A DNA stretch of 34,297 bases, taken from NCBI GenBank assembly GCA_001898625.1, contig MKUP01000029.1, positions 1-34,297 of the forward strand, written 5' to 3'. The notes beneath the pieces were generated by a model. It did not search any database and was not told the DNA's origin. It saw only the letters and a list, made by a program, of their open reading frames with translations. The translations under genes and the position numbers were made by a program. Below are positions 2,962 to 31,993 of the stretch, piece after piece (positions within the stretch are counted from its first letter, which is position 1; each line of letters starts with the position of its first letter). Source of the stretch: Burkholderiales bacterium 67-32. Its GTDB lineage: Bacteria; Pseudomonadota; Gammaproteobacteria; Burkholderiales; Burkholderiaceae_B.

Positions 2962-3003
2962 TTGATCAAGATCAAGGTACTGCCTTCACCTCAGCTCTAT
3001 GCT
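2962..3003 (+). promoter_or_regulatory. FNR/ANR-type class II promoter for the plus-strand arm
   Basis: TTGATCAAGATCAA at 2962-2975 is a perfect match to the FNR/ANR consensus TTGAT-N4-ATCAA. A -10 element TATGCT lies at 2998-3003, exactly 22 bases after the box, which is the geometry of a class II FNR promoter (box centred at -41.5) and predicts a start near 3010. No gene intervenes before the DUF2933 gene at 3210, so this promoter should serve the plus-strand genes from 3210 onward under low oxygen. Motif and spacing are seen; regulation is inferred. Confidence 0.75.
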
Positions 3004-3209
3004 GAGCTTAACAAGCCACATTTGGCACGGGTCGATCATGCTCAGAAACTATCGAGGACTTTTTAGCGGGGCCATGGAAATCTCCGGTGTTCAGCCCCAT
3101 TCTTCTGGCATACCTGTTTTATGGATGGGCCTGATCAGCGCCCTGCACGGCACTCGAATGCGGGAATCTCGCCAATCGACAAGGGTCAACTTCACGAAGG
3201 AGCATCGCC

Positions 3210-3536
3210 ATGAATATTCCGCCCGATCGAAGTAAGAGCACAGGAAACGGCCCGAACTGGTCTCGCATCAACCAGTGGCTGCTGTGGCTCGGCCTCGCCG
3301 CCGCCGTTGCCTGGATGTTCTACCGCCACAACGCCCATCTTCTGCAACTGCTTCCCTTCCTCTTCATCCTCGCCTGTCCGTTGATGCACATCTTCGGCCA
3401 TGGCAGTCACGGCGCACATGGCGGTCATGACCATCAAGATCAGCCGCCTCGGGGCGATGAAGGGGGTTCGCCTGCGCGCCAATCAGACGACCGGAGCCGC
3501 CCGAAATCCGTCGACCAGTCCGGGCACCACCACTGA
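3210..3536 (+). CDS. DUF2933 family small membrane protein with His-rich tail
   Basis: A 108-residue DUF2933 protein of unknown biochemical role, often found near copper and other metal-resistance genes. Residues about 20-65 hold two hydrophobic segments (WLLWLGLAAAVAWMFY and LLQLLPFLFILACPLMHIF) with the family's typical ACPLMH motif. The tail is rich in histidine and glycine (HGSHGAHGGHDH, ending GHHH), which could bind metal at the membrane face. AAGGAG just upstream of the ATG supports the start. It is the first gene after the FNR promoter and is followed by a CopZ-like chaperone. A second DUF2933 protein lies at 30680-30919, near the head of the opposite arm. Confidence 0.8.
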   Translation: MNIPPDRSKSTGNGPNWSRINQWLLWLGLAAAVAWMFYRHNAHLLQLLPFLFILACPLMHIFGHGSHGAHGGHDHQDQPPRGDEGGSPARQSDDRSRPKSVDQSGHHH

Positions 3537-3554
3537 AACCACCGGAGCATCATC

Positions 3555-3854
3555 ATGGAAACCATCGAACTCAAGGTTGCCGGCATGACCTGCGCCTCCT
3601 GCGCGAACTCGGTCAGCAAGGCGCTCAAGCGCGTAGCTGGTGTGCAAGACGTGCATGTCGATCTCGCTCGCGGCGCAGCGAGTGTCACCGGCGACCAGAC
3701 GGCCCAGAAGACGCCTGAGCTGATCGCGGCCTTAGCTGCCGCGGGCTACGAGGCATCCGCTGATTCCTCGCCGGGCATTGCGGCGGGTGCCGGTGCCTCC
3801 CATGCGCCGGCCGCTGCCCGTTCAAAGGGGCATGGCGGCTGCTGCTGCCGCTGA
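3555..3854 (+). CDS. HMA-domain copper chaperone, CopZ-like, with Cys-rich C-terminus
   Basis: A 99-residue soluble metallochaperone. Residues 1-68 form a heavy-metal-associated domain with the canonical metal site GMTCASC (Cys-x-x-Cys), expected to carry Cu(I). An Ala/Gly-rich linker follows, and the protein ends in GHGGCCCR; three adjacent cysteines next to a histidine form an extra likely metal site that simple CopZ proteins lack. GGAG about 7 bases before the ATG supports the start. It lies 18 bases after the DUF2933 gene and 8 bases before the DUF3141 gene, so it is in the same operon. Its likely partners are the P-type ATPase at 26501-28966 or a Cu exporter outside the window. Confidence 0.85.
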   Translation: METIELKVAGMTCASCANSVSKALKRVAGVQDVHVDLARGAASVTGDQTAQKTPELIAALAAAGYEASADSSPGIAAGAGASHAPAAARSKGHGGCCCR

Positions 3855-3862
3855 TCGACGCC

Positions 3863-5530
3863 ATGGACGCACGCACGAACTCCCAGGGTATCGCCGCCGC
3901 ACCGCTTGGGCTCTTTGCTGCCTACTGGGGCGACATGCTGTGGCGGACCGTCGCGTCCGGCGAAGCGCTGAGACAGCGCGCCAACAACATGACCGAACAC
4001 GAAGCGGCGGGTATGCCGCCGCTGCTCCACTTCGAGTCAGAGCAGGTGGCTGACGGCCACGACTTGCAACCGGCGAGCAACTACCGGCTCCTGCGTGTCA
4101 CTCGCTGTGGCACCGACGCCTTGGAGAAGCATGTGCGCAAAGGCGCCGCGCCGGTGCTGGTGGTCGATCCACGCGCCGGCCACGGCCCTGGCATTGGCGG
4201 CTTCAAACGCGATTCTGAAGTTGGCATGGCACTGCTCGAAGGCCATCCCGTGTACTTCGTAGTGTTCGATCCGGAGCCCGTCGAGGGCCAGACCATGGGC
4301 GCAGTCGTCCAGACCCTGGCCACATTCATCGACATGGTGGCCAAGCGCCACCGAGGCAAGGCCCCGATCGTCTACGGCAACTGCCAAGGCGGTTGGGCGA
4401 TCACGCTGGCGCTGTCGCACTGCGAGCACCGTGCCGCCTTGGCAGTGCTCAATGGCTCGCCGCTGTCGTACTGGGCAGGCGAGAGAGGCATCAACCCCAT
4501 GCGGCTGCTCGGTGGGTTCACGGGCGGCATCTGGCCGGCGCACTGGGCGTCGGACCTCGGCGCCGGGCGATTCGACGGTGCCTGGCTGGTCCAGAACTTC
4601 GAGGCGTTGCGGCCCGAGGGCGTGTTCAAGAAATACGACACGCTCTTCGCGCAGCCGGAGACTGAGCGCGATCGCTTCCTGGAGTTCGAGCGTTGGTGGA
4701 ATGGCTTCTACCAGCTTGCCCGCGAGGAAATGTTGTCGATCGCAGGCGATCTTTTCGTAGGTAATCACCTGGAGAGCGGCGAGGTCGTGGTCGATGGCCA
4801 CTGCCGCGCGGATCTCAGCCGCATTGGCGCACCGCTGGTGGTCTTTTGCTCCAACGGCGACAACATCACACCGCCCCACCAGGCGCTCGGCTGGCTCAAA
4901 GCGGTATATCCGACGACCGCAGACCTGGTGGCGGCGGGCCAGCGCGTGGTGTACCTGCTGCACCAACATGTTGGCCACCTTGGCATCTTCGTTTCCGCGG
5001 GGGTGGCGCGACGCGAGCACCGCGCCATCTTGCATCATGCCGAATCTATCCAGGCACTCAAGCCTGGACTCTACGAGATGGTTCTGGAGGACAGCGCCTC
5101 TTCGGAGTCGGCCGCCGCTGCGCAGTTCCAGCCGCGGCGGCTGGAAGACCTGCCTTACGACGCCAACCCGGCGGGGTTCGACAAGGTCGAAGCACTCTCG
5201 GAGATCACCGAGCGCTTCTATTCGCAGTGGGTGTCGCCGTGGGTCCGCTTCGCCGTCACCCCCGACTCGGCTCGTGAACTTCGCGCGCTGCACCCCATGC
5301 GCGTCAGTCGCAAGGTCTGGTCCGAGCAGGTGACCCCGGCCCTGGCGCTGCTGCCATGGGTGCAACGATGGCTTGAGCAGTGGAGTGCGCAGGATCCCCA
5401 TCGGGTCGAAAATCCTTGGTATCAGCTTGAGCGAACTGGTGCAGACGCGATTGGGCAGGCCATGGAATCATGGCGCAAGAGCCGGGACCTGTGGGCTGAG
5501 CTTGTGTTCGAGCAGGCCTATGCCAACTGA
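3863..5530 (+). CDS. DUF3141 family alpha/beta-hydrolase, PHA-synthase-like with Cys nucleophile
   Basis: A 555-residue protein of the DUF3141 family, which is related to poly(3-hydroxyalkanoate) synthases; its reaction is not established. The nucleophile elbow reads YGNCQGG, so the catalytic residue would be C174 rather than Ser, as in PhaC (G-x-C-x-GG). A later Asp (VFCSNGDNITPP) and His (HQHVGHLGIF) complete a plausible triad. In my recollection DUF3141 proteins are longer (about 700 or more residues); this one stops after EQAYAN, so a C-terminal portion appears to be missing. In other bacteria this gene is often beside a phosphotransacetylase and acetate kinase; here acetate kinase follows but no phosphotransacetylase is present. 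The ribosome site at the ATG is weak; translation may be coupled to the chaperone gene. Confidence 0.78.
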   Translation: MDARTNSQGIAAAPLGLFAAYWGDMLWRTVASGEALRQRANNMTEHEAAGMPPLLHFESEQVADGHDLQPASNYRLLRVTRCGTDALEKHVRKGAAPVLVVDPRAGHGPGIGGFKRDSEVGMALLEGHPVYFVVFDPEPVEGQTMGAVVQTLATFIDMVAKRHRGKAPIVYGNCQGGWAITLALSHCEHRAALAVLNGSPLSYWAGERGINPMRLLGGFTGGIWPAHWASDLGAGRFDGAWLVQNFEALRPEGVFKKYDTLFAQPETERDRFLEFERWWNGFYQLAREEMLSIAGDLFVGNHLESGEVVVDGHCRADLSRIGAPLVVFCSNGDNITPPHQALGWLKAVYPTTADLVAAGQRVVYLLHQHVGHLGIFVSAGVARREHRAILHHAESIQALKPGLYEMVLEDSASSESAAAAQFQPRRLEDLPYDANPAGFDKVEALSEITERFYSQWVSPWVRFAVTPDSARELRALHPMRVSRKVWSEQVTPALALLPWVQRWLEQWSAQDPHRVENPWYQLERTGADAIGQAMESWRKSRDLWAELVFEQAYAN

Positions 5531-5825: not shown

Positions 5826-6959
5826 ATGCGCGTCCTCGCCATCAATGCCGGCAGTGCGACCCTGAAGTTCGGAGTTTTCGAGTCGGCTCGTACCTTGCCA
5901 TTGATCGACTCGGCGATTGATCATCCTGCGGTGGATGCTGCGACCTTCGAGGAGATCGAGCGGCACTTGCACAGGGCGGGTGTCACAACGCTCGATGGCA
6001 TTGGTCACCGCGTCGCACACGGTGGCCCACTGTTGAGCAACGCGGTGCTCGTGGATGAAGAAGTCGAACGCGAGATCGGCAAGGCTTCGGCTCTGGCGCC
6101 GCATCACAATCCTGCCGCATTGGCCGGCATACGCCTGACCCGTGAGCGTTGGCCCGGCGTGCGCCACGTCGCGGTCTTCGACACCGCTTTCCATGACGAC
6201 ATGCCCGAATACGCCCATTCCTATGCTGTTCCGCCATCGTGGCGCGCGGCAGGGGTACGGAGGTACGGCTTCCATGGCCTGTCCCACCAGGGTGTACTGG
6301 CCGCCGTCAGCACCGAGCTGAAACGGCCGCCGTCAGAACTTCGTATCGTGAGCTGCCACATTGGAAGCGGCGCCAGCGTCTGCGCGATCGATCGCGGAAG
6401 GTCGGTCGATACATCTATGGGAATGACCGCGCTTGAAGGTCTTGTGATGGGCACGCGCTGTGGAGACCTCGACCCTGGCGTACCCGGCTTCGTCGCACGC
6501 GCACTGGGTTTGACGTTGGCGCAGATCGAGGCGGCGCTTTACAGCGACAGTGGACTCAAAGGATTGTCGGGTGAGAGTTCGGACCTGCGGATTGTGGAGA
6601 AGCGCGCGGGAGAAGGAGTCGCAGCCGCCCAACTGGCAATGCAGGTTCACGCGTACCGCGTGCGCAAATACATCGGCGCCTACGCCGCCGCGATGGGCGG
6701 TTGCGATGCTGTGGCCTTCACTGGCGGAGCTGGAGAAAATTCGGCCGCGTTGCGTCGGCGCATCGTTGATGGCCTGGAGTTCATCGGCCTGGAACTAGAC
6801 GAAGAGCGCAATCGCGCCTACTCGCCCAACACTGAAGTCGCCCAGTTGCAGTCATCCCGATCCGCCGTCGCCGTGCTGGTGGTTCAAGCACGCGAGCAGT
6901 TAGCGATCGCGCGTGAGACGTTCCGAGCGCTGAATGACCAGGCAAGTGGTTTGGTATAG
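5826..6959 (+). CDS. ackA: Acetate kinase
   Basis: Acetyl phosphate + ADP to acetate + ATP (reversible), cytosolic, 377 residues, close to the usual 390-400. The ASKHA-fold motifs are all visible: INAGSATLKF at the start, GHRVAHGG, VFDTAFH, RYGFHGLSH, the phosphate loop CHIGSGASV, DTSMGMTALEGLVMGTRCGDLDPG and FTGGAGENS. A GGAG ribosome site precedes the ATG. With the phosphoketolase at 9218-11647 on the same strand, acetyl phosphate made from pentose phosphates can be cashed in for ATP without phosphotransacetylase, which is absent from this window. The N-terminal AGSATLK differs slightly from the common GSSSLK, so it is a diverged but apparently functional copy. Confidence 0.93.
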   Translation: MRVLAINAGSATLKFGVFESARTLPLIDSAIDHPAVDAATFEEIERHLHRAGVTTLDGIGHRVAHGGPLLSNAVLVDEEVEREIGKASALAPHHNPAALAGIRLTRERWPGVRHVAVFDTAFHDDMPEYAHSYAVPPSWRAAGVRRYGFHGLSHQGVLAAVSTELKRPPSELRIVSCHIGSGASVCAIDRGRSVDTSMGMTALEGLVMGTRCGDLDPGVPGFVARALGLTLAQIEAALYSDSGLKGLSGESSDLRIVEKRAGEGVAAAQLAMQVHAYRVRKYIGAYAAAMGGCDAVAFTGGAGENSAALRRRIVDGLEFIGLELDEERNRAYSPNTEVAQLQSSRSAVAVLVVQAREQLAIARETFRALNDQASGLV

Positions 6960-7099
6960 GCAATGAACTGGGACAAGACCACGATAAGTCTTCCTCCGGG
7001 CCGGGAGCCACGCCCGTTGATGCTCGCGCCGATGATGGTCCAGTTGCCCATCCAACCGCACGTTGAAGGAAGAAACGGAGCGGTTCAGACACCGGGCCC

Positions 7100-7130
7100 T
7101 TGACCCATGTGCAGCACCTGGGTTCAAACT
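7100..7130 (+). promoter_or_regulatory. MerR-type promoter with long spacer and dyad, upstream of the MerR gene
   Basis: TTGACC (7100-7105) and a weak -10 CAAACT (7125-7130) are separated by 19 bases, the overlong spacer typical of MerR-controlled promoters. The spacer carries the dyad ACCCATGT-GCAGC-ACCTGGGT (7103-7123), with one mismatch between arms. It points at the MerR gene starting at 7177, so autoregulation and control of the downstream Cfa/phosphoketolase genes is likely. Confidence 0.6.
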
Positions 7131-7176
7131 CGCTCGAAAGTGAAGGGATTCAAGACAACCTTGCTGGAGGATGGTG

Positions 7177-7629
7177 ATGCAACTCATTGAATGCGCCAAG
7201 GCGGCAGGCGTCACACCGGACACGTTGCGTCACTACCTTCGGGTGGGGCTTGTGGTGCCCGATGGCCGGGGCACGAACGGCTACCGCGCATTCTCGGATC
7301 GAAGCGTCGCCCGGGTTCGTTTCATACGCAATGCATTGGCCCTCGGCTTCACGCTCAAGGACGCTGCAGAGTTTGTCGAGATGAGCCAGCGCGGTGCATC
7401 GCCTTGTCCGCGCGCGCGGGCGCTGCTGAGCGAACGGCTTGACGAGCAGGCCCGGCGGCTGAAGGAGGCGACAGATTTGCATCGCCGCATGCAGCAGGCA
7501 GAGCGCGACTGGAAGCGGCTGCCGGACGGCGTCCCGGATGGCCATTCCGTCTGCGGTTTGATCGAAGGAGCGGATGCGGACGTTCAGCGCAATTCGGTGC
7601 GCGCGAAGTCCCGTCGTGTACGCGCATGA
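7177..7629 (+). CDS. MerR-family transcriptional regulator, metal-sensor type
   Basis: A 150-residue MerR-family activator. The N-terminal helix-turn-helix and wing (IECAKAAGVTPDTLRHYLRVGLVVP...GYRAFSD) are followed by the long dimerisation helix. Candidate effector ligands are C77 (ASPCPRA), H124 and C126 (DGHSVCG). C77 corresponds to the dimer-helix Cys found in sensors of divalent metals such as ZntR and MerR, but the first cysteine of the usual C-terminal loop pair is missing, so the metal cannot be named. I chose ATG 7177 over the in-frame ATG 7171 because the GGAGG at 7166-7170 touches 7171 but is 6 bases from 7177. The gene lies just before the Cfa and phosphoketolase genes. Confidence 0.82.
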   Translation: MQLIECAKAAGVTPDTLRHYLRVGLVVPDGRGTNGYRAFSDRSVARVRFIRNALALGFTLKDAAEFVEMSQRGASPCPRARALLSERLDEQARRLKEATDLHRRMQQAERDWKRLPDGVPDGHSVCGLIEGADADVQRNSVRAKSRRVRA

Positions 7630-7849: not shown

Positions 7850-9100
7850 TTGCGCCGGCTGCTGGCCGGCATCGAGCGCCCGCCGGCGTTGCGTCTGGGC
7901 GATATGCTCTTGCACGAGCTCGAATCGCACCCGGAATACACCCTGATCATCCGTGACCCGGGTCTGCTGCGTCGCTTGGTCCTGCGCCCGGATCCGCTGC
8001 TGCTGGCGGAAGCCTATTTCCGCGGCACCATCGACATTGAGGGAGACCTGTACACCGCGCTCGGGCTCAAGGCGCATTTCGAGAGGTTTTCGCTCTCTTG
8101 GCGCGACAAACTGGCCCTGTTGCGCGACGCACTGCTGCTGCGCGTGTCCGACCAGGACGGGTTGAAGCCCTCGCGGAGTCTGGCCTCGCGCGTCGCACGT
8201 CGCTTCTCCCATCGCCATTCGCGTCAAACCGATCAGGCCGCGATCTCCTTTCACTACGATGTGTCCAACGCGTTCTATGGACTCTGGCTCGATGCCGAGA
8301 GGGTCTACTCATGTGGCTATTTCAAGGCGACGGATGACACGCTGGACCAGGCTCAGCGCAACAAGCTGGAGCACATCTGCCGCAAGCTGCGCCTGCAGCG
8401 AGGCGAACGCCTGCTCGACATCGGCTGCGGCTGGGGCGCGCTCGTGTGCTGGGCGGCAAGAGAACATGGCGTCCGTGCGCACGGCATCACGCTCAGCCAA
8501 CAGCAACTCGAATACGCGCGCGAGCGCATCCGCTCGGAGGGCCTGCAGGATCTCGTCACCGTTGAACTGCGCGACTACCGTGACCTCGAAGGCACGGCCG
8601 TTTTCGACAAGGTGTCAAGCATTGGCATGTTCGAGCACGTGGGACTCGCGAACCTACCGGCCTACTACGCGGTGGTCCAGCGGGTTTTGCGGCCAGGAGG
8701 ACTCTTCCTCAACCACGGGATCACCCATGACGAGGAGGGCTGGAGCCGAACCGTCGCGACCGAGTTCATCAACCGCTACGTCTTCCCCGACGGCGAATTG
8801 GACTGCGTCAGCAATATCCAGCTAGGGATGGAGCGCTCCGGCTTCGAGATCCATGACGTCGAAGGTCTTCGACCCCACTACGCGCTGACCTTGCGTCATT
8901 GGGTCCAGCGACTCGAAGCGCGCCGGGAGGAGGCCTTGCGGGAGGTCGATGAGGTGACCTTCCGCATCTGGCGCTTGTACATGGCGGCGTGTGCACTGGA
9001 ATTCGAGGCCGGGGGGACTGGGATCTACCAGATCGTCGCGTCCAAACGCGACGGCGGAAGCTGGCCCGTGCCCTTGACCCGCTCTGATCTTTATGGATAA
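7850..9100 (+). CDS. cfa: Cyclopropane-fatty-acyl-phospholipid synthase family protein
   Basis: SAM-dependent enzyme that adds a methylene bridge across unsaturated acyl chains of membrane phospholipids, a known protection in stationary phase, acid and low oxygen. About 416 residues. Key features are the substrate/active-site segment SFHYDVSNAFYGLWLD (133-148), YSCGYF, the SAM-binding loop LLDIGCGWGAL (188-198), SIGMFEHVG, and a C-terminal HWVQRLE region. The start is unclear: no ATG or GTG exists in this frame after the upstream stop at 7727-7729, so TTG 7850 is used. The frame is open from 7730, and the residues before TTG (DGYAAALRI) look protein-like, so the real start may be a rarer codon further left or the sequence may be altered. 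Confidence 0.85.
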   Translation: MRRLLAGIERPPALRLGDMLLHELESHPEYTLIIRDPGLLRRLVLRPDPLLLAEAYFRGTIDIEGDLYTALGLKAHFERFSLSWRDKLALLRDALLLRVSDQDGLKPSRSLASRVARRFSHRHSRQTDQAAISFHYDVSNAFYGLWLDAERVYSCGYFKATDDTLDQAQRNKLEHICRKLRLQRGERLLDIGCGWGALVCWAAREHGVRAHGITLSQQQLEYARERIRSEGLQDLVTVELRDYRDLEGTAVFDKVSSIGMFEHVGLANLPAYYAVVQRVLRPGGLFLNHGITHDEEGWSRTVATEFINRYVFPDGELDCVSNIQLGMERSGFEIHDVEGLRPHYALTLRHWVQRLEARREEALREVDEVTFRIWRLYMAACALEFEAGGTGIYQIVASKRDGGSWPVPLTRSDLYG

Positions 9101-9217
9101 CACAGCCATGAACGCTAGATGGCCGTGCCGCTGGCGCGCGAAAGACGATCACAGACGCCAGCCTTCCCAATCTCGCCGTCGCGCTTACCTGCGTGCCGGC
9201 TCTCAAGGACTTTCCAC

Positions 9218-11647
9218 ATGAACCACGAGCTTCCCTGGGTCGCCGAGCGCGTCCGCGTGTTCCGCGAGTCTGATCCCGAGTTCGCCCGCTGGGCGCGCGG
9301 CCACGGCCCCATCACCCACAACGATCTCACGCAACTGCGAGTCCACGATCTCGCACAGGTGCTGGTTGCCGAAGGCAAGGCGAGCGACACAACCGCGGTG
9401 TATCGCACGCTCTGGTCGGCGGACCGCCTGGCCGTGGCAGGCATGTGGTTGACGGTTCACATGACCTATGCCGACCGGGTCTATCCCGATGGCCGGGAGA
9501 TGAGAGCCGAGGATTTCAAGGAGACGCCGGAGGGGCATACCGGTGGGGCGCTGAACATCGTGCCGGCCTATGTCGGCTACCTGGCCGCGAACGCGCTCAG
9601 TGGGTTGACGCGTGGCTGGTTGATGGGCCAGGGCCATTGCGTCGCGGGCATCGATGCCTGCAACCTTCTGGTGGGCAACATGACGCCGCGCCACGCCGAG
9701 AGATACGACCGCAGCGAAAGCGGCCTCACGCGCTTTGCCCGGGATTTCTATAGCTACGCGATCGACGCACAGGGGCGTCCCGCCTCGCCGCTGGGCAGCC
9801 ACGTCGGCCCGAATACGGCAGGCGGTCTGTCCGAGGGCGGCTATCTCGGCTTTGCCGAACTGCAGTACGTGCACATGCCCTTGCCCGGCGAGCGGCTGGT
9901 GGTGTTCCTCAGCGACGGCGCTTTCGAGGAGCAGCGTGGCAGTGACTGGGCGCCGCGCTGGTGGCGGGCAGAAGACAGCGGCTTCGTGGCACCGTTCATG
10001 ATCCTCAACGGTCGCCGCATCGAACAGCGCAGCACCATGCAGCAGCAGGGGGGCCGAGAATGGTTCCACCAGCATCTGCGGCTGAACGGCTTCGACCCGA
10101 TGGAGATCGACGGCACCGACCCCGCCGCGTTCGCCTGGGCCGTTCACGCGATGGAGGAGCGGTTGTCGGCCTGCGCGGCTGGAGTTTCGCAGGGCACCGT
10201 TCAGTACCCGGTACCCCTCCACTACACCATCGCCGAAGCGCCCAAGGGATTCGGCTTCCCCGGTGCTGGAACCAATGCCGCGCACAACCTGCCGCTGGAG
10301 GGGAACCCCCGGGTCGACCAGATAGCGCTTCAGCAGTTCAACGAGGGTGCTCGCGCTCTCTTCGTGCCGTCGCACGAACTCGACGAAGCGGTCGCACTAC
10401 TGCGCCGGCACGAAGTGCAGCATCGTCCCCTGGAGCGGGACCATGCCCTGGCGCACCGCCAGGTGGCGGCCCCCAGACTTCCGGTTCCGCAGTGGCATGT
10501 TGCGGGCCAGGGCGAGGTCTCGCCAATGGCGGCACTCGACGGAGCCTTCGCGGCCCTCGTCCAAGCCAACCCACAGCTGCGTCCGCGGGTAGGCAATCCG
10601 GACGAGCTGCGCAGCAACCGCATGGGCCAGACATTGGACCTGCTCAAACACCGCGTCTTCACGCCCGAACCGGGCCTGGCGGAGGCCGTCGATGGCGCCG
10701 TGATCACGGCGCTCAACGAAGAAGCGGTGGTCAGCGCGGCGCTGGGCAACAAGGGCGGCATCAACTTGGTCGTCTCTTACGAGGCATTTGCCGTCAAGAT
10801 GCTGGGCGCGCTGCGCCAGGAAATCCTGTTCGCGCGACATCAGGCGCAGGCAGGCACACCACCCGGATGGCTGTCGGTGGTCACGGTTGCGACGTCCCAC
10901 ACCTGGGAGAACGGCAAGAACGAGCAGTCGCACCAGGATCCGACGCTGGCCGAAGCGCTGTTGGGCGAAATGTCCGACACCTCGCGCGTGTTGTTCCCGG
11001 TCGATGCCAACAGTGCCGTTGCGGCGCTGCGCGCGGCCTACGCCTCGCATGGCCAGTTCTGGACGCTGGTCGTTCCCAAGCGGGCCGTCGCCAGCCAGTT
11101 GAGTGCCGAGCAGGCCGAACGCTTGGTCGATCAGGGTGGTTGGGTGGTGAAGCCCTGCGACGCCCCCGACGTGTTGCTGGTTGCCATCGGCGCATACCAG
11201 CTACAGCAGGCCCTGCTTGCGGCGCGGCGCCTCGAAGCCGCTGGACATCGGACCGCAGTGACCTGCGTCATCGAGCCGGGCCGCTTCAGAGCACCCCGCG
11301 ACGAACGCGAGCAGGACTTTGTGGCCGGCGACCAGGCCTTGCGCGCCCTGTTCCCGGAGACTGCCGCCGTGCGCGTCATCGTCTCGCACATGCGACCCGA
11401 GCCGACGCTGGGCCTGATGCGTCGGATCGATACAGGGGCGCGGCAGACCCGTGCCTTGGGCTACCAGGCGCGCGGCGGGACACTCGATGTGGCCGGCATG
11501 CTGTTCGCGAACCGTTGCACGTGGGCGCACGTCGCGGCGGAGGCGGCTCAAGGGCTCGGTGTCGATCCGCAGAGCTTGCTGAGCGCCGAGGAGTGGGCGG
11601 CCGTGCAGGGGCGTGGCGACCCGCGCGTCATCACGGTCTCGGCTTAA
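9218..11647 (+). CDS. Divergent phosphoketolase (XFP family)
   Basis: Thiamine-diphosphate enzyme cleaving xylulose 5-phosphate or fructose 6-phosphate with phosphate to acetyl phosphate plus glyceraldehyde 3-phosphate or erythrose 4-phosphate. 809 residues, about the family length. The N-terminal XFP domain is recognisable (AVAGMWLTVHMTYADRVYPD, GHTGGALNIVPAY, NTAGGLSEGGYLGFAE), as is the central and C-terminal region (NEEAVVSAALGNKGGINLVVSYEAF, SHTWENGKNEQSHQDP). The ThDP motif is SDGAFEEQ (from S232) instead of the classical GDGEAETG, and GPGHGG appears as GQGHCV, so this is a distant subgroup. ATG 9218 has AAGGA 9 bases upstream; an in-frame start at 9119 adds a non-conserved leader. Paired with acetate kinase it yields ATP without redox change. 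Confidence 0.87.
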   Translation: MNHELPWVAERVRVFRESDPEFARWARGHGPITHNDLTQLRVHDLAQVLVAEGKASDTTAVYRTLWSADRLAVAGMWLTVHMTYADRVYPDGREMRAEDFKETPEGHTGGALNIVPAYVGYLAANALSGLTRGWLMGQGHCVAGIDACNLLVGNMTPRHAERYDRSESGLTRFARDFYSYAIDAQGRPASPLGSHVGPNTAGGLSEGGYLGFAELQYVHMPLPGERLVVFLSDGAFEEQRGSDWAPRWWRAEDSGFVAPFMILNGRRIEQRSTMQQQGGREWFHQHLRLNGFDPMEIDGTDPAAFAWAVHAMEERLSACAAGVSQGTVQYPVPLHYTIAEAPKGFGFPGAGTNAAHNLPLEGNPRVDQIALQQFNEGARALFVPSHELDEAVALLRRHEVQHRPLERDHALAHRQVAAPRLPVPQWHVAGQGEVSPMAALDGAFAALVQANPQLRPRVGNPDELRSNRMGQTLDLLKHRVFTPEPGLAEAVDGAVITALNEEAVVSAALGNKGGINLVVSYEAFAVKMLGALRQEILFARHQAQAGTPPGWLSVVTVATSHTWENGKNEQSHQDPTLAEALLGEMSDTSRVLFPVDANSAVAALRAAYASHGQFWTLVVPKRAVASQLSAEQAERLVDQGGWVVKPCDAPDVLLVAIGAYQLQQALLAARRLEAAGHRTAVTCVIEPGRFRAPRDEREQDFVAGDQALRALFPETAAVRVIVSHMRPEPTLGLMRRIDTGARQTRALGYQARGGTLDVAGMLFANRCTWAHVAAEAAQGLGVDPQSLLSAEEWAAVQGRGDPRVITVSA

Positions 11648-12426: not shown

Positions 12427-12490
12427 GGGCCGTTACTCCTCAACAACATTTCACCCGAGCGCCCATCATCGCTTGACACGGGTGCCATCA

Positions 12491-12512
12491 ACTTACAAAC
12501 TAGTTGGTAAGT
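12491..12512. promoter_or_regulatory. TetR-type operator between the TetR and SDR genes
   Basis: A 22-base palindrome with outer arms ACTTAC and GTAAGT and core AACTAGTT; only one pair of positions (12497 and 12506) breaks symmetry. It overlaps the -10 region of a promoter with -35 TTGACA at 12473-12478 directed at the SDR gene. That is the usual place for a TetR-family repressor site. Confidence 0.8.
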
Positions 12513-12531
12513 AAACCACAGGAGTGCATTT

Positions 12532-13362: not shown

Positions 13363-13370
13363 TCGCTGTT

Positions 13371-23122: not shown

Positions 23123-23147
23123 GGTAGGTCTCCAAGGATGTTGTCGT

Positions 23148-24552: not shown

Positions 24553-24553
24553 G

Positions 24554-25165: not shown

Positions 25166-26487
25166 GGTTCGGTTTCCGTGGAAGTGAGAAAAGTGCGGGA
25201 CGGTGAAGCGCTCACCAGGACGGGGTTGGCTGGCCACCAATGCCGCGGAATGAGCAGCAGCGCGAGGGTGGCGGCCAGTGGAATCGACAGCCACGCAAAG
25301 GTGCTCTGCATCACAGCGCCGAATAGCCATCCGGTGGCGGCCGATCCCAGTGTTTGTCCGAGGCCGGCTGCCGCGGCGAGCCCTCCCATCGCGATACCGA
25401 GCCGCCGCGCCGAGGTGCCGGCAGCGAGGTAGGCCAGGGTGGGGAGCACGAGACCCGTGCCCGCAGCCGTGAAACTCACGCCGACGTACAGCCACATCTC
25501 GCTGCCATGGCGGGCCAGCATCAGGAGCCCGGCGATGCCCAGGACCATGCCGCAGGCCAGTACGCGGCGTGGGTCGGCGCGCTCCAGCAGGCCGGTGAAG
25601 AACAGCACCGCGTTGACGCCCAGCATCACCAGACTGCACTCGGCGAACATCAACGACACCTCTCGGGAGGAGAGATCGGGGTGGCGCTGGCCCTGCAGCA
25701 CGATGCCGAGTTCAAAGCCGGCAAGCACGAACATGACCACACCGTTGAGAATCCAGAGCGCCAGGGAGCGGCTCCGGGGTGCTCCGTCGTGATCGGCTGC
25801 GTCCGCCTCTCCAAGGGAGTAAGGTGCGGGAAGCGTTGCGGCCAGGCCCAGCATCATCAGCGCGCCGAGCGCGGCCGAGAGTGCGATCACGAGCGTGGTC
25901 GATGAGCCCTGTACCAGCACGCTCAAGAAGCCCAGGCCGACAAGCCGTTCTGCAGCGGCGTTCAGGCCGGGGCCGAACAGGAACCCGAGCAGCGACATCG
26001 CACCCAGCCATGCAAAGCGCCTGGCGCGAATCGATTCTGGGGTGTACTGCGCGACGAGCGCCGGCACCACCGGCACGACCGCGGCCACAAAAAAGCCCGT
26101 CGCGCCGCGCAGCGCATAGATGCCGACCACGCCCAGGGACTCGGGGCGCAGCAGCGGGAGCAGGCTGGCCACGTAGCCGATCAGGCCCACCAGCAACACG
26201 CGGGCACGCCCCAGCCTGTCCGCCAGCATGCCCCACAGGGGCGCACCCAGCAGGATGCCCGCCGTGTAGATGCCGCTGAGGTAGCCGACATGGCGCGCAA
26301 GCGCCGCAGGATCCGCGTCGCCCATCAAGGGCCGCAGCCAGTCGGGGATCAAGGGCATCAGTGCCCCATATCCGGCCGAGACGACGAATACGGCCGCAGC
26401 GAGCCAACCCAGCTGCGCGACGCCGAGGTCTTGCTGGCGGGTGGGCCCGGATTCGCGCGGTGATCGCATGGCGCGGCTCTCTACCAT
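25162..26487 (-). CDS. MFS transporter
   Basis: Major facilitator superfamily permease, about 441 residues with 12 predicted membrane helices. The loop 2-3 signature is present (GAPLWGMLADRLGRARVLLVG), as is the helix 4-5 region (GATGFFVAAVVPVVPALVAQYTPE). The overall pattern suits a multidrug-type exporter; the substrate is unknown. ATG 26487 starts 14 bases after the ATPase stop; upstream ATG 26532 would overlap the ATPase gene by 32 bases and ATG 26469 is another option. It is coupled to lemA by ATGA. Confidence 0.84.
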   Translation of the reverse strand: MVESRAMRSPRESGPTRQQDLGVAQLGWLAAAVFVVSAGYGALMPLIPDWLRPLMGDADPAALARHVGYLSGIYTAGILLGAPLWGMLADRLGRARVLLVGLIGYVASLLPLLRPESLGVVGIYALRGATGFFVAAVVPVVPALVAQYTPESIRARRFAWLGAMSLLGFLFGPGLNAAAERLVGLGFLSVLVQGSSTTLVIALSAALGALMMLGLAATLPAPYSLGEADAADHDGAPRSRSLALWILNGVVMFVLAGFELGIVLQGQRHPDLSSREVSLMFAECSLVMLGVNAVLFFTGLLERADPRRVLACGMVLGIAGLLMLARHGSEMWLYVGVSFTAAGTGLVLPTLAYLAAGTSARRLGIAMGGLAAAAGLGQTLGSAATGWLFGAVMQSTFAWLSIPLAATLALLLIPRHWWPANPVLVSASPSRTFLTSTETEP

Positions 26488-26500
26488 GGTGGCCCGCCGC

Positions 26501-28966
26501 TCAGGCTGACGCGGCCGCTGGGACACTGGCACGCGACGTCACGCGCTTGATCCCCGGCAGGCGCGTGCGCTTGAGCATCAGCGCATTGATCGCGACGATC
26601 GCGGAGCTGCCCGACATGGACAATGCAGCGACCTCGGGCGACAAGGTGAACGGATACAGCACCCCGGCCGCCAGCGGGAAGGCGATCACGTTGTAGGCCA
26701 CGGCCCACCAGAGGTTCTGGTGCATCTTGCGCAGCGTCGCCCGGGACAGTTCGATGGCCCCGACCACGTCGTAGGGGTCACTCTTCATCAACACCACCTG
26801 GGCGCTTTCCATCGCAACGTCCGTCCCCGCGCCAATCGCAAAGCCCACGTCGGCCTGCGTCAGCGCCGGAGCGTCGTTGATGCCGTCGCCGACCATGCCG
26901 ACCTTGTGACCCTGCTGCTGCAGTTCCTTGATCTTGGAGGCCTTCTGCCCGGGCAACACATCCGCAAGCACGATGTCGATGCCCAGTTCCTTGCCGATGC
27001 GCTCGGCGGTCGCCTGGTTGTCGCCGGTCAGCATCGCGACCTTCACGCCGCGTGCCTGCAGCTTGGCGATCGTCTCGCGCGAGGTCGGCCGCACGGCATC
27101 GGCGATCGCGATGAGGCCGATCAGCCGGCCACCGCGCGCGACGTGGACCACAGTGCGCCCCCCGCCTTGCAGCCGCGCCGCCTCGCTGGCAAGGGGAGCC
27201 AGATCCACCTGTTCCGACTGCATCAGCAGCCGGTTGCCCAGGAGCACCGTCTCGCCCCCGATAGTGGCCCGTGCGCCTTGCCCATCGATGTTGGTGAAGT
27301 TCTCGGTGACCTCCGTCGGCATGTCTCCCGCACGCTTGAGCACTGCGAGCGCGAGGGGGTGCTCGGAGAACTTCTCCACCGCGGCGGCCGTCGCCAGAAG
27401 CCGCGTCTCCTCGACACCGGGCGCGGCCACCATCTCGACGACATCGGGCTGCCCCAGTGTCAAGGTGCCGGTCTTGTCGAACACCACGACCGTCAACTTG
27501 GTGGCGTTCTCCAATGCGGCCGCATTCTTGAAGAGAATGCCGTTCATTGCGCCCAGCCCGGTCCCGACCATGATGGCCATCGGGGTGGCCAGCCCCAGCG
27601 CATCAGGGCATGCGATCACGAACACGGTGATGGTCAAGGTGAGTGCGAACAGTAATGTCTGTCCCATCACCCAGTACCAGACGCTGAAGGTCAGCAGGCC
27701 AATCACGATCGCCGCCAGCACCAGCCACTGGGATGCGTGGTCGGCCAGCAGCTGGCCGGGGGCCTTCGAGTTCTGGGCCTCCTGGACCAGCTTGACAATC
27801 TGCGCCAAGGCCGTGTCCGCGCCGACCTTCGTGGCCTTGTAGCGAAAGCTCCCGCTCTTGTTGATGCTGGCGCCTACGACGGTGCTGCCCACGCCCTTCT
27901 TGACCGGCATGGACTCGCCCGTCAGCATCGACTCGTCCACTTGCGACGCGCCCTCGACGATCTCGCCATCCACCGGGATCTTGTCGCCGGGCTTGATCAC
28001 GACCAGTTCCCCGGCTGCAACCTCGGCGGTCGGTACCTTGGTCTCCACCCCGTTGCGCACGACCGTGGCCATGGGTGGGGCGAGATCCATCAACGCGCGA
28101 ATCGCGTCGGATGCGCCCGCGCGGGCGCGCATCTCCAGCCAGTGCCCCAGCAGGATGAAGACCAGCAGCACCGATGCCGCTTCATAGAACACCTCACCCT
28201 CGTAGAAGAAGGTCGCGCCGATGCTGAACAGGTAGCCGGTGCCCACCGACAGCACGACCAACGTGGCCATGTTGGCGACGCCGTTGCGCAGCGCGCGCCA
28301 CGCCGCCACGTAGAAAGGCCAACCTGGATAGATGATCGCGGCACTTGCGAGGAAGAAAAGAAAGAGCTTGTCGTCCAGCCCGAACGGCGTCTGGAAGTCG
28401 CCGAACATCTTCCCCATCGGGGAATAGAAGAACACGGGAATGGCGAAGACCAGGGCCACGAAGAAGCGATTGCGCATGTCCCGAGCCATGTCCTGCATCG
28501 AGCCCGACCCGTGGCCCATGTCGTGCATCATGTCGTCCATCGCAGGGTCGCCTGCGTGGGCCTGGTGCGCAGCATGGGCGGCGGGCGTCGTGGCCGCAGC
28601 CTTCGCGCGTGCGGCCGTGGCGGGGGCATGCGCGTGGTGCCCCTCATGCCCCATCTCTTGCGCCTGACGTGCGGGTGCGCCGTGATGGCCGTGCACCGCA
28701 TGGCTGGGGTCGGCAGAGACGCCAGCGGCGGGCGCGCACACGTGCTTGGGCGTCTGCTCGCCACGGCAGTGATAGCCGCATTCGGCGATGCGCTGGCGCA
28801 GATCCTCGACACTGAGTTGTCCCTCATCGAGATGGACCGTTGCGCTTCCCGCAACATAGTTGACATCTGCATGATGGACGCCGGGAAGCTGCAGCAGCTT
28901 GCGGCGTACTCCCTCCGCGCTCAGGCTCGATACGAGCCCTCCGACTTCAACGTTGATCGACTTCAT
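26501..28966 (-). CDS. P1B-type heavy-metal ATPase with CPD motif, probable copper exporter
   Basis: An 821-residue metal-pumping ATPase. The N-terminal HMA-like domain has lost its cysteines (S13 and S16 replace CxxC). A His/Met-rich linker follows ([35 protein letters not shown]). The catalytic core is intact: [10 protein letters not shown]497[23 protein letters not shown] and [11 protein letters not shown]. The membrane metal motif is C453-P454-D455 instead of CPC or CPH. The last helices have YN and MSGSS, as in Cu(I)-transporting P1B-1 pumps. AGGAAG precedes ATG 28966. Copper(I) is the likely cargo given the CopZ-like protein and cop genes, but the Asp makes specificity uncertain. The gene follows PPK2 by 32 bases. 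Confidence 0.88.
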
Positions 28967-28998
28967 GGCTGTTCTTCCTGTTCGCTGTGTTCGTGGTC

Positions 28999-29862
28999 TC
29001 AACGAGCGAGTCGGCCCGAGTCCAGGCAGTCCTGCGAGAACTCGAAGACGATCTCCCGGTCGGGAGCGATGACCTTGTGCTTCTTGCCGGCGTAATGCAG
29101 CCGGGAGAGGATGTCTCTGATCAGGTTGAGCCTCGCCAACCGTTTGTTGTCGGCGTGCACGACAGACCAGGGCGCCGCGGCCGTATGGGTGCGCATGAAC
29201 ATCTCGTCGCGCGCCCGTGTATAGCCGTCCCAGTGCTTCAGCGCGACGGCATCCACCGGGCTCGACTTCCACTGTTTGAGGGGATCACGGCGGCGTTCCC
29301 CGAGCCGGCGGCTCTGCTCCTTCTTGCCGATGTCGAGGTAATACTTCAGCAGCTTGATACCGGAGTTGACCAGCATCTCCTCGAACTTGGGCACTGAGTT
29401 CATGAATTCCTCGTGCTCCTCGGCGGTACAGAAGCCCATCACCGGTTCCACGCCCGCACGGTTGTACCAACTGCGGTTGAACACCACGAGCTCTTCGCCA
29501 ACTGGCAGGTGCGGGACGTAGCGCTGGAAGTACCAGCCCGTGCGATCCCGGTCGGAGGGCTTTCCTAGCGCGACGACCCGTGTTTCCCGAGGACTCAGGT
29601 GTTCGACCAGCCGCTTGATGCTGCCGTCCTTGCCTGCGCCGTCCCTTCCCTCCAAGAGGATCAGGATACGGTCGTTGCATTTGATGAAATGCCGCTGCAG
29701 TTTCACCAGTTCGATCTGCAGCATGTGCAACTGTGCTTCGTAGTCCTCGCGGCCGATCGAGCGTGTCGCTGTCTCGTCGCGCGCTGAGCCGTGGGCAGTG
29801 CCGGTGCCGTCCACATCGGCCTTGTGCTTGGCGCCTTTGGCGCCCTTCTTGTTCTTTGCCAT
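28999..29862 (-). CDS. ppk2: Polyphosphate kinase 2
   Basis: A 287-residue single-domain PPK2, which transfers phosphate between polyphosphate and nucleotides, mostly making NTP from NDP in this class. It has Walker [10 protein letters not shown] (72-80), lid/Walker B region [17 protein letters not shown], and the family segments [25 protein letters not shown] and [17 protein letters not shown]. The N-terminal Lys-rich tail is common. CGGAGAA precedes the ATG. Its job here would be ATP or GTP supply from stored polyphosphate when respiration fails, alongside acetate kinase. Confidence 0.92.
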
Positions 29863-29872
29863 GGGTTCTCCG

Positions 29873-30031
29873 TTAGGTCTGGTCGCAGGCGATCAGCATT
29901 GCGTGTGTCGACGCCCGGCGGGGCGCGGCGCTCATGTCCGCATCCGAGCGGGAGCCGCAGCCATCGCCTTGTCCGTAGGCTGCAGCCAGGTACGGTCGAT
30001 TGATGCGCTGACGCCAGCGGGTCTTCTTCAT
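29873..30031 (-). CDS. Possible small basic protein (52 codons)
   Basis: A candidate short gene filling the gap between the methyltransferase and PPK2 genes. It begins MKKTRWRQRINRPYLAAAYG 1 base after the upstream stop, with GAGG close before its ATG, and ends 10 bases before the PPK2 start. No family recognised. Its fit to the gap and the basic start are the only support; it may be a chance frame. Confidence 0.3.
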   Translation of the reverse strand: MKKTRWRQRINRPYLAAAYGQGDGCGSRSDADMSAAPRRASTHAMLIACDQT

Positions 30032-30032
30032 G

Positions 30033-30683
30033 TCAGCCTCGCTGGCGCGTGTCCGAGAGGGAGGGAAGGAAGCGCGGCGTGCGCGCGGCATAGGCGTCGA
30101 ACTCGGCGCCGAACTGCTTGCGCATGTCCTTCTCCTCGTTGACAGCCAGCCTCGAATACATCACGACGAGGAAGGGGAACATCAGCAGCGTCAACAGCGT
30201 CGGCCACTGCAGCAGAAAGCCGAAAAGGATCGCCACGAAGGCCACATACTGCGGGTGCCGAATCCTGGCGTATGGGCCGCTCACGGCAAGTTGGGCGTGC
30301 CGTTGCGCGTGGTAGAGCACCGTCCAGGCGCTCGACAGAAGCCAGAAGCCGCCCCCGATGAAGATGTAGCTCGCGATATGAAGCGGGCTGAAGTGAGGGT
30401 CGCCGCTCTCGCCCAGCAGGGTCGACCAGAGATGGCCGCTGTTGTGCGACAGCAAGTCCAGACTGGGATACTTGGTCTGAAGCCAGCCGGACAGCACGTA
30501 CAGCGTCAGCGGAAAGCCGTACATCTCGACGAACAAGGCAACAATGAACGCTGCGAATGTCCCGAAGGTTCTCCAGTCGCGCGAGGTCTGCGGTTTGAAG
30601 AAGCTGAAGGCGAACATGATGAAGACCGCCGAGTTCACGAGGACGAGCAGCCAAAGCCCATAAGCGGGCGCATCGTGGTTCAT
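30033..30683 (-). CDS. Membrane methyltransferase, isoprenylcysteine carboxyl methyltransferase-like
   Basis: A 216-residue multi-pass membrane protein of the ICMT/PEMT-like methyltransferase group. It has about five hydrophobic helices and the C-terminal SAM-site signature GPYARIRHPQYVAF...EEKDMRKQFGAEFDAYAARTPRFLP. Substrates in bacteria are mostly unknown; lipids or small lipophilic molecules are likely. ATG 30683 overlaps the stop of the DUF2933 gene (30680-30683). It is in the same unit as the metal and energy genes. Confidence 0.85.
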   Translation of the reverse strand: MNHDAPAYGLWLLVLVNSAVFIMFAFSFFKPQTSRDWRTFGTFAAFIVALFVEMYGFPLTLYVLSGWLQTKYPSLDLLSHNSGHLWSTLLGESGDPHFSPLHIASYIFIGGGFWLLSSAWTVLYHAQRHAQLAVSGPYARIRHPQYVAFVAILFGFLLQWPTLLTLLMFPFLVVMYSRLAVNEEKDMRKQFGAEFDAYAARTPRFLPSLSDTRQRG

Positions 30684-30919
30684 TTGCGCTCTCCCGGGTA
30701 CGGTGGATTCGCCTTGCTACCGTCGCCTGGTACGGCATGGCGATGCATCAGCACATGAGCGATGACGCAAGTCGCCAGGAGGACCAGTGGCAGCGCGGCC
30801 AGGTAGTGCCCGCGGTGTTCCGTCAGCAGCATGTAGATGCTCACGGCCAGGAAGACCAGAAAGCCCAGGAACCATCGCGAGCGCGAAAACCTTGGACCGG
30901 TGCGGTGAGAAGTTGTCAT
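30680..30919 (-). CDS. DUF2933 family small membrane protein
   Basis: A 79-residue protein with two hydrophobic helices (WFLGFLVFLAVSIYMLL and YLAALPLVLLATCVIAHVLMH) and the EHRGH...ALP...HVLMHRH pattern of DUF2933. ATG 30919 is preferred over in-frame 30934 because GAGGAGG stands 7 bases before it. It is shorter than the plus-strand relative at 3210-3536 and lacks its long His-rich tail. Function unknown; coupled to the methyltransferase gene. Confidence 0.75.
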   Translation of the reverse strand: MTTSHRTGPRFSRSRWFLGFLVFLAVSIYMLLTEHRGHYLAALPLVLLATCVIAHVLMHRHAVPGDGSKANPPYPGERK

Positions 30920-30930
30920 GGTCGTCCTCC

Positions 30931-31332
30931 TCACTTCGCCGGCTCAGGCATCCGGTCCATCATCATCTGCATCATGGACTGGCACATGTCCATGCGCATT
31001 TCGAGCATTTGCTGCCGCTCAGCTGTCGGCGCCGACTCGGCTCCATCCTTCATTGCGCCCATCATCGCCATGCCAGCCCGCATGGCCTGCATGTGTTCGG
31101 CCATGAGCGCCTTGCGCTGCGCAGGCGTCTTCGCAGCCACCATCCGTTCGTGCATGGCCTGCATCGACTTCAGTTGCGCATCCATGCCCTCGGTGGTCGG
31201 CGCCCTTGGCGTCTCGGCCGCGGTCGGACTCGCACCTGCGGGGTGATGGGCCTGATGGTTGTCCTGCGCGAACGCAGACAAGGTGACCAGTGCGGCGCCA
31301 ACGATGGCCGCGATCGAATGCGTGAATTTCAT
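30931..31332 (-). CDS. Exported Met/His-rich small protein, possible periplasmic metal binder
   Basis: A 133-residue protein with a signal peptide (MKFTHSIAAIVGAALVTLSAFAQ) and a mature helical part full of methionine (MAEHMQAMRAGMAMMGAM; MRMDMCQSMMQMMMDRM) plus NHQAHH near the mature start. Such Met-rich helices suit Cu(I)/Ag(I) binding in the periplasm, but no named family is recognised. GGAG precedes ATG 31332. It is the first gene behind the MerR-type promoter at 31404-31434, which fits a metal-induced protein. Confidence 0.7.
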   Translation of the reverse strand: MKFTHSIAAIVGAALVTLSAFAQDNHQAHHPAGASPTAAETPRAPTTEGMDAQLKSMQAMHERMVAAKTPAQRKALMAEHMQAMRAGMAMMGAMKDGAESAPTAERQQMLEMRMDMCQSMMQMMMDRMPEPAK

Positions 31333-31403
31333 TTCTCTCTCCTTTAGCCGCGGGTGCCTGCCATTGGGGCGAAACCGATGTCGCCGCAAGCGGACAAAGC
31401 CCT

Positions 31404-31434
31404 ATGAAAACTCCGTAGTCGGGTACAGAGTCAA
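31404..31434 (-). promoter_or_regulatory. MerR-type metal-responsive promoter with dyad
   Basis: On the minus strand, -35 TTGACT (31434-31429) and -10 TTTCAT (31409-31404) are separated by 19 bases, the overlong spacing of MerR-activated promoters. The spacer region carries CTCCGTAGTCGGGTACAGAG (31411-31430), an inverted repeat with CTCCGTA/TACAGAG arms (one mismatch), close to the mercury-type MerR operator pattern. It points at the Met-rich protein and the long operon. The likely regulator is the MerR protein at 32065-32487. Confidence 0.72.
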
Positions 31435-31486
31435 GGCTTATGAGTTGTGCGCCGGGTGTGACCGACACGGCAACTCAAAGGAGGCG

Positions 31487-31921
31487 CTACAGCGCGAGAC
31501 GCTCGAACAGCAGCCACGACGGCCGCTTGGGAGGTGGTCGCTGGTGACCCCTCGATGGGATGGCTCGCAGAGCCAACGTCGGAGCCAGCAGCTGGTCTCC
31601 ATAGGCGGGAGGCGCCAAACCGACGAGGTCGAACGCGAAGGTTGGTGCTTTCTGAATGGCGGACTGGTTGACGTCGCCGCAGAGCTTCAGGCACGGGGCC
31701 TTCGACGGGTCGTGGGAACCTTCTTCGTGCTCACCATGGAGGCCTTCATGATTTCCATGCCCGGACGATGGGACATGCTCATACCCGACAGCATGCCGAT
31801 GTTGCTGCGGAGACTCCAGAAGGCAGGCATTGGCCACCCCGGCCCCGAGCGCAAACAGCCATACCCCGAGCACCATCCACGCGATGGCGCGAATCCTGCG
31901 GTGGTTGAGAAGTGTGCGCAT
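31487..31921 (-). CDS. Exported His/Cys-containing protein, metal-resistance-associated (unknown function)
   Basis: A 144-residue protein with a hydrophobic signal segment (IAWMVLGVWLFALGAGVANA) followed by CLLESPQQHRH, a His/Glu cluster (HGNHEGLHGEHEEGSH) and CLKLCGD. It ends in a Pro/Arg-rich tail. The layout suggests a periplasmic metal-binding protein, similar in style to small proteins encoded beside metal efflux genes, but I do not recognise the family. It lies directly behind the FNR promoter at 31952-31993; its start at 31921 is 24 bases from the predicted transcription start. The ribosome site is weak. Confidence 0.65.
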   Translation of the reverse strand: MRTLLNHRRIRAIAWMVLGVWLFALGAGVANACLLESPQQHRHAVGYEHVPSSGHGNHEGLHGEHEEGSHDPSKAPCLKLCGDVNQSAIQKAPTFAFDLVGLAPPAYGDQLLAPTLALRAIPSRGHQRPPPKRPSWLLFERLAL

Positions 31922-31951
31922 GTGCGGCCTATTGACCCATTGACACCTGTG

Positions 31952-31993
31952 ATCCTATTCCCAACTGAGCTGCGGGAAATTGATTTGGATCAA
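31952..31993 (-). promoter_or_regulatory. FNR/ANR-type class II promoter for the minus-strand arm
   Basis: TTGATTTGGATCAA at 31980-31993 is a perfect FNR/ANR box (TTGAT-N4-ATCAA). On the minus strand a -10 TAGGAT lies at 31957-31952, exactly 22 bases from the box, as in the promoter at 2962-3003. The predicted start is near 31945, just before the exported protein gene at 31921. In the plus direction no good -10 lies at the right distance, so the box seems to face the minus-strand operon. Confidence 0.72.

Follow-up and report, generated by a model that had tools for sequence, protein, structure and literature searches.

A mobile block of copper and energy genes with two predicted host-FNR promoters and a predicted MerR-type metal input

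How might a mobile block of genes come to answer to the oxygen supply of its host? The question is raised by a 34,297-nucleotide stretch of DNA from Burkholderiales bacterium 67-32 (contig MKUP01000029.1, hereafter the window), in which genes for energy metabolism, nucleotide handling and copper export lie in two convergent sets. A first-pass annotation had proposed that the whole 29-kb block forms one low-oxygen regulon, bracketed by two inward-facing promoters of the FNR type. Our analysis makes it probable that the block is mobile cargo with two class II promoters for the FNR of the host and, in addition, a MerR-type metal input. Host-FNR promoters on mobile cargo together with MerR-type control would, if the reading is true, make this a transferable island that joins oxygen and metal control.

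The window contains two perfect TTGAT-N4-ATCAA boxes where 0.02 are expected by chance, and none of 100 shuffled windows held two or more. The boxes lie and face as the annotation had described, at 2962-2975 and 31980-31993, and the window indeed has no third. Allowing up to two mismatches gives 12 boxes against 4.85 expected, the other 10 lying, by their coordinates, inside genes or across a gene start. A -10 element follows each perfect box at exactly 22 nt, TATGCT after the left box and TAGGAT after the right one, a spacing that predicts a site near position -41.5. The corresponding strict class II pattern (TTGAYN4RTCAA-N22-TANNNT) occurs twice in the window and at least once in none of 400 dinucleotide shuffles. 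On both sets of shuffles a chance origin of the boxes was rejected. When the 6.66-Mb genome was searched for the same spacing, as the annotation had suggested, only these two sites matched; the remaining eight of its ten perfect boxes lack TANNNT at 22 nt. Since this host has no strict class II FNR sites beyond the two of the island, the island could serve to examine cleanly how mobile genes connect with the regulation of a host. The strict pattern is likewise confined to the two island sites in a Pigmentiphaga genome (G206) and to a single one, within the island, in Piscinibacter sakaiensis (G208). A Burkholderiales metagenome-assembled genome (MAG; G207, 4.5 Mb) has two, one being the left promoter of its island and the other lying on that contig at a distance of 13 kb, and its sole perfect box is the island's left one; Achromobacter ruhlandii (G201) has seven, two of them in the island.

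We compared twelve copies of the island, the window among them, found via phosphorylase homologues (G043 and G206, apparently one record, count as one). Six named genera have near-identical copies, represented by A. ruhlandii, Stenotrophomonas nitritireducens, Pseudomonas rhodesiae, Aquabacterium soli, Pigmentiphaga and Hydrogenophaga, and in others. Most of their aligned blocks are 98.5-99.8% identical to the window; the P. rhodesiae copy is 94.6% identical over its first 5.5 kb. Diverged copies, with 67-89% identity by block, are those of an Acidovorax plasmid (W01), P. sakaiensis and the MAG. An argument for selection from the eight near-identical copies was set aside, and G208, G207, W01 and the left version of G202/G200 were used instead. 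The right box fits TTGAYN4RTCAA in all twelve copies and is perfect in nine, with one base altered in G118, G208 and G207; in W01 and the close copies its -10 reads TAGGAT, TAGAAT or TATGAT. The left promoter DNA exists in three versions (window-like in seven copies, a second in G202/G200 and a third in G208/G207), and each of these 11 copies has an FNR box that is followed after 22 nt by a -10. The box reads TTGACTAAYATCAA in G202/G200 and is perfect in G208/G207, and both of these versions have TATTCT as their -10 at the same spacing. Over promoter regions of 164 nt, independent versions share 47-52% identity on the left, and the window and G208 share 40% on the right, against a baseline of 49% for the left region of the window aligned with its right region, a pair treated as unrelated. 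That the predicted FNR sites have outlasted the promoter DNA around them is the strongest evidence for their function. Conservation of both boxes, which the annotation had named as a check, thus held on the right in every copy and on the left in 11 of 12, with no left box in L120 of the Acidovorax plasmid. Spacing, rarity and persistence in diverged relatives together back the class II FNR/ANR geometry that had been predicted.

The surroundings of the copies point to a vehicle. In Pigmentiphaga G206 the left flank carries CopB, a multicopper oxidase, CopC, CopD and a CusB/CusF-type efflux set, adjoining the response regulator and sensor kinase genes that correspond to window positions 463-2575; the right flank carries TraI_2, TraG_N and TraU. 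With cop/cus genes on one side and tra genes on the other, the block belongs, in G206 at least, to the cargo of a conjugative element rich in metal genes; the window's own contig ends, and no conjugation genes were seen there. The genome of the window, too, is probably that of a Pigmentiphaga. The A. ruhlandii copy has a Tn3-type transposase on its right.

The genome of the window (G000) encodes an FNR (L009:943-1668) with a CX2CX5C motif, a fourth cysteine and an ETVSR recognition helix, motifs that we take to be diagnostic of FNR. The protein scores 246.4 bits against the curated family NF008365 (cut-off 228), and used as a query at E 1e-15 it finds its own gene as the sole match in this genome. 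Among 26 matches to PF13545 there, seven of them above the cut-off, the best four were read and comprise FNR and three Crp-type proteins that lack the E..SR helix residues. An FNR homologue with N-terminal cysteines is present in each of the 11 carrier genomes searched, a set that does not include plasmid W01, and seven of the 11 have a second FNR-like match. None of the 30 window proteins scanned matches a Crp/Fnr-type family, and the island therefore seems to use a host regulator; it appears to borrow the chromosomal FNR as its oxygen sensor. Because its FNR sites should be readable by any FNR-bearing host, the island would not need an oxygen sensor of its own.

Similar boxes accompany related genes elsewhere. 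A set of 98 less redundant phosphorylase neighbourhoods, 1,565,557 bases in all, yields 20 perfect boxes spread over 17 of its sequences, compared with 0-3 matches for each of 19 permuted arms and 0-6 for TTGAT/ATCAA at each of the other spacers from 0 to 12. Fifteen duplicate or near-identical loci had been left out (L011, L012, L016, L018, L019, L040-L048 and L051); the window, W01, G208 and G207 were retained and account for five of the 20 boxes, and L015, with its box inside a gene, was retained as well. Around 43 degenerate boxes, counted in both directions and excluding those in recognised genes, a -10-like hexamer stands at spacing 22 in 16 cases, versus 0-6 at other spacings between 8 and 37. 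In Massilia, Pseudoduganella, Noviherbaspirillum, a Neisseriaceae genome and a proteobacterial MAG, boxes lie 52-148 nt upstream of a metallo-β-lactamase (MBL) match. In L015, L016, L018 and L019 a perfect FNR-type box lies within the phosphorylase gene, with no good -10 at 22 nt. No FNR-type box was found in five Legionella loci with the phosphorylase module (L091, L095, L109, L113 and L118), and three of these five genomes gave no FNR match at E 1e-15.

The annotation missed a predicted metal-type promoter within the right operon. Its first two genes are separated by a site in which TTGACT is followed by the dyad CTGTACCCGACTACGG, AGT and TTTCAT, an arrangement typical of promoters activated by MerR. 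TTGACT and the dyad are present in all twelve copies, diverged ones included; the -10 differs and is poor in G208 and G207. The spacing of -35 and -10 is 19 bp in the window and near copies, and by eye 20 bp is the better fit in G208/G207. The same pattern occurs at seven other places in these genomes; four were read, and all four adjoin MerR-, MerT- or MerP-like genes and resemble mer operons by eye. A MerR-family gene diverges from the right operon; its product resembles mercury MerR and scores 130.8 bits against the mercury MerR family TIGR02051, below the cut-off of 150.85. Given this MerR-type promoter, the right operon would also answer a metal signal, via the divergent MerR and with copper as the likely context. 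An apparent mer operon of the host (G000:C18:82966-82988, in L244) carries a similar dyad, and a mercury MerR might therefore cross-talk with the island. A further MerR-type gene at 32722-33168 matches the C-terminal MerR-DNA-bind domain only and is perhaps truncated or mis-started.

MerR-like dyads beside both FNR boxes suggest that oxygen and metal signals meet there too. The left dyad differs from CCGTAGN4CTACGG at two positions in the window, at one in G202 and at none at the matching place in G208 and G207. On the right, a 12-mer between the FNR box and merR contains one arm of such a dyad and is unchanged in all twelve aligned copies. Dyad centres lie, by arithmetic, 22-24 bp from the centres of the FNR boxes. 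These arrangements might be composite gates, in which a MerR-family dimer bound at that distance upstream works with FNR so that energy supply and copper export run only, or most strongly, at low oxygen and high metal; we hold this idea tentatively and with some doubt. A MerR regulator acting from an upstream site rather than from the -35/-10 spacer would, if true, be unusual. The left dyad was rejected as a MerR-type promoter of its own, since no TTGACT or consistent -10 is seen around it by eye. The composite element was also rejected as a widespread promoter type: of 399 genomes from the order, 6 match a pattern of dyad arm, FNR box and -10. Beyond the window's two matches, five genomes supply six, in which the second dyad arm is scant by eye, and the reversed control has two matches. 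No MerR-like dyad was seen by eye near the displayed FNR boxes of more distant phosphorylase loci.

How far would transcripts from these promoters extend? We propose that the chromosomal FNR of the host recognises both boxes as class II promoters. The left one would drive at least the DUF2933-HMA-DUF3141 genes, and the right one at least the small gene 31487-31921, probably reading through into the long minus-strand operon (Table 1). On the plus strand, linkage to the FNR promoter is tight for these first three genes; membership of the genes from 5826 to 11647 in the left transcript is unproven, and some of the gaps between them depend on the starts chosen for the cyclopropane fatty acid synthase (7907) and phosphoketolase (9217). 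The minus-strand operon is tightly packed, with gaps of -4 to 53 nt and one exception of 259 nt in its distal part, gaps of up to 170 nt in its proximal part, and three larger gaps overall (151, 170 and 259 nt). Scans for consensus sigma-70-like promoters found one in the left part (1.9 expected) and none in the right (1.5 expected), at or below background, and terminator-like sites number 9 on the left (7.9 expected) and 14 on the right (7.2 expected).

Table 1. Features of the window, in order of position
Feature	Position	Strand	Remarks
Response regulator and sensor kinase genes	463..2575	+	from translation; outside the bracket
MerR-like dyad CCGTAGCTGGGTACAG	2937..2952	+	upstream of left FNR box; 2 mismatches to CCGTAGN4CTACGG
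Left FNR box TTGATCAAGATCAA	2962..2975	+	perfect palindrome
Left -10 TATGCT	2998..3003	+	22 nt downstream of left box
Core of left FNR operon: DUF2933 (3210-3536), HMA copper chaperone-like (3555-3854), DUF3141 (3863-5530)	3210..5530	+	gaps 18 and 8 nt
Acetate kinase (5826-6959), MerR (7171-7629)	5826..7629	+	gaps before: 295 and 211 nt
Cyclopropane fatty acid synthase (7907-9100), phosphoketolase (9217-11647)	7907..11647	+	gaps before: 277 and 116 nt
TetR (11824-12426, minus), short-chain dehydrogenase/reductase (SDR; 12532-13362, plus)	11824..13362		divergent pair, optional cargo
Right operon, distal: DUF4010/MgtC, type II GAPDH, UbiB-like kinase, 2-hydroxyacid dehydrogenase, DUF6629, phosphoribosyl pyrophosphate (PRPP) synthase, AMP/thymidine phosphorylase family, MBL beta-CASP family, TPM protein	13371..23644	-	
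Right operon, proximal: TPM protein, LemA, major facilitator superfamily protein, Cu P-type ATPase, PPK2, PEMT/ICMT-like, DUF2933, two small proteins	23647..31921	-	
Internal MerR-type promoter, TTGACT and TTTCAT with dyad in 19-bp spacer	31404..31434	-	pattern search
Right -10 TAGGAT	31952..31957	-	22 nt downstream of right box
Right FNR box TTGATCCAAATCAA (operon direction)	31980..31993	-	perfect palindrome
Conserved 12-mer GGGTCAACTACG	32004..32015		between right FNR box and merR; one MerR-like dyad arm
MerR-family regulator	32065..32487	+	PF09278, PF13411; divergent from right operon

The two gene sets do converge near 13365 as annotated, with ends at 13362 and 13371. The TetR gene, described there as a plus-strand exception, is on the minus strand and divergent from the SDR gene. 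This pair (11655-13370) is missing from five of the twelve copies (G200, G203, W01, G208 and G207), and in G203 and G200 its place is taken by 154 nt of other DNA; the pair is therefore separate cargo. The two small proteins at 30931-31335 and 31487-31921 have no Pfam or NCBIfam match. The phosphorylase scores 480.7 bits against the AMP phosphorylase family TIGR03327, under the cut-off of 535, and passes the broader thymidine phosphorylase subfamily NF003338. Where the window has gaps at 18351-18611 and 19255-19309, the Acidovorax plasmid (L120) carries genes for an S-adenosylmethionine-dependent methyltransferase, a VTT protein and a trypsin-like protease. Outside the bracket lie merR and the two-component genes, which we take, by resemblance, to be of the copper type. 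In Stenotrophomonas (G204) the sensor kinase gene is separated from the left FNR promoter by about 4 kb that include a MerR-like gene (L162:9073-13134), and the two matching blocks share 12 bp of window sequence, 2674-2685.

Three other explanations were weighed. That the entire 29 kb is a single low-oxygen regulon under the two FNR promoters alone would suit the convergent layout with its narrow junction, the short gaps of the minus-strand operon and the lack of sigma-70-like promoters above background. We consider it unlikely, given the conserved MerR-type promoter within the right operon, the dyads beside both FNR boxes, the optional TetR-SDR pair and the left-side gaps of 116-295 nt. Plasmid W01 also retains the acetate kinase, MerR, cyclopropane fatty acid synthase and phosphoketolase genes despite the boxless upstream sequence in L120.

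The boxes could instead serve mainly another regulator of the CRP/FNR family in some hosts, for example NO-sensing Dnr, since Dnr-type proteins read the same box; the second FNR-like matches in seven of 11 carriers, and the reading of only the best four of 26 PF13545 matches in the window's genome, leave room for one. Against it stand the three next-best Crp-type proteins without an FNR-type helix and the cysteine-bearing FNR of every carrier genome searched, and we give this account little credence. Perfect boxes also fall within open frames elsewhere, as in the L015 group, as would be expected of functionless sequence that arose by chance or hitch-hiked; the shuffles, the genome-wide uniqueness of box with spacing and the survival of the sites in diverged promoters make this highly improbable.

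We therefore return to mobile cargo under host FNR with a MerR-type input, and to what such cargo might do. Family matches cover phosphoketolase, acetate kinase, PPK2, type II GAPDH and 2-hydroxyacid dehydrogenase on the side of energy and redox balance, and PRPP synthase, a copper P-type ATPase and an AMP/thymidine phosphorylase-family enzyme whose gene overlaps that of the beta-CASP-family protein on the side of nucleotides and copper. The beta-CASP-family, phosphorylase and PRPP synthase genes (19309-23125) overlap by 4 nt each, and a low-oxygen salvage of RNA to ATP is possible. A chain from RNA through nucleotides, ribose phosphates and acetyl phosphate to ATP, in which the ribose-1,5-bisphosphate step is unassigned, is speculative. 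The archaeal AMP-to-RuBisCO pathway was discarded for the host, because a search of 12 genomes or records found a RuBisCO large subunit in seven and none in G000. The toxicity of copper(I) rises when oxygen is absent, so that coupling copper export to fermentative and polyphosphate-derived ATP would be ecologically sensible. The block may have a role in anaerobic energy supply.

In the available portion of a study of Bradyrhizobium diazoefficiens, three units with the same product names drop about 7- to 31-fold in a delta-fixK2 mutant under microoxia: a phosphoketolase-acetate kinase unit with the FixK2 motif TTGACCTCACGCAA, a thymidine phosphorylase-PRPP synthase-MBL unit with ATGATCTGGGTCAA and a DUF2933-ICMT-hypothetical unit with TTGATCTGCGTCAA (PMC9104804). 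A protein and gene expression table, of which the column headings lie outside the part available, has positive values for phosphoketolase and the three genes of the thymidine phosphorylase unit (PMC6515984). As far as these excerpts go, they lend independent support to such genes as low-oxygen equipment.

Several observations weigh against our reading. The Bradyrhizobium homology is one of product names; in the excerpt, DUF2933-ICMT alone keeps the order found here, the genes of the other two units being arranged differently, and two of the three FixK2 motifs given are imperfect. A reversed control of the strict class II pattern has one match in the whole genome. In the wider neighbourhoods a -10 at 22 nt accompanies only a minority of the 43 boxes, and some boxes are intragenic; not all can therefore be promoter sites. 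The conservation seen in the eight near-identical copies (94.6-99.8% by block) carries no information, the right region of W01 is still 79% like that of the window, the right -10s of G208 and G207 are weak (GAGACT and GACACT), and the right-side MerR-like dyad is a half-site. No FNR-type box with up to one mismatch is present in the 10.7 kb of L120 upstream of the four genes from acetate kinase to phosphoketolase in the Acidovorax plasmid. The left box stands about 0.25 kb before DUF2933 in the window version, 0.7 kb before it in G202/G200 and 1.0 kb in G208/G207, and at these larger distances it may serve an extra gene first. In Piscinibacter a homologue of the small protein 31487-31921 is the first gene after both FNR boxes (L184:642-655 and the right box); given this and the differing distances, the left promoters are perhaps not strictly equivalent.

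How does the island compare with known systems? No title found in an open-licence library describes it. It shares with class II FNR/ANR promoters the TTGAT-N4-ATCAA box, a -10 at class II distance and a host FNR with cluster cysteines, and in the part of the source available a Herbaspirillum Fnr site at -42 is called class II (PMC5934665); the island differs in being mobile cargo, in its facing pair and in the MerR-like dyads about two helical turns upstream. The FixK2 microoxic regulon of B. diazoefficiens likewise places like-named gene sets under a CRP/FNR-family activator with TTGA-type boxes, in separate loci as far as the excerpt goes (PMC9104804), whereas the island gathers such sets, compared here by name and not by sequence, with copper genes and has FNR as its predicted activator. 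With mer-type MerR promoters it has in common TTGACT, a 19-20 bp spacer with a CCGTA-type dyad and a divergent merR, so that one pattern detects both; unlike in mer operons, its MerR falls under the mercury cut-off, its cargo is copper and energy genes, and additional dyads lie upstream of the FNR boxes. The G206 copy resembles copper-resistance conjugative elements in lying between cop/cus-type genes and a group made up of TraI_2, TraG_N and TraU, and to such elements the island adds a low-oxygen energy and nucleotide module.

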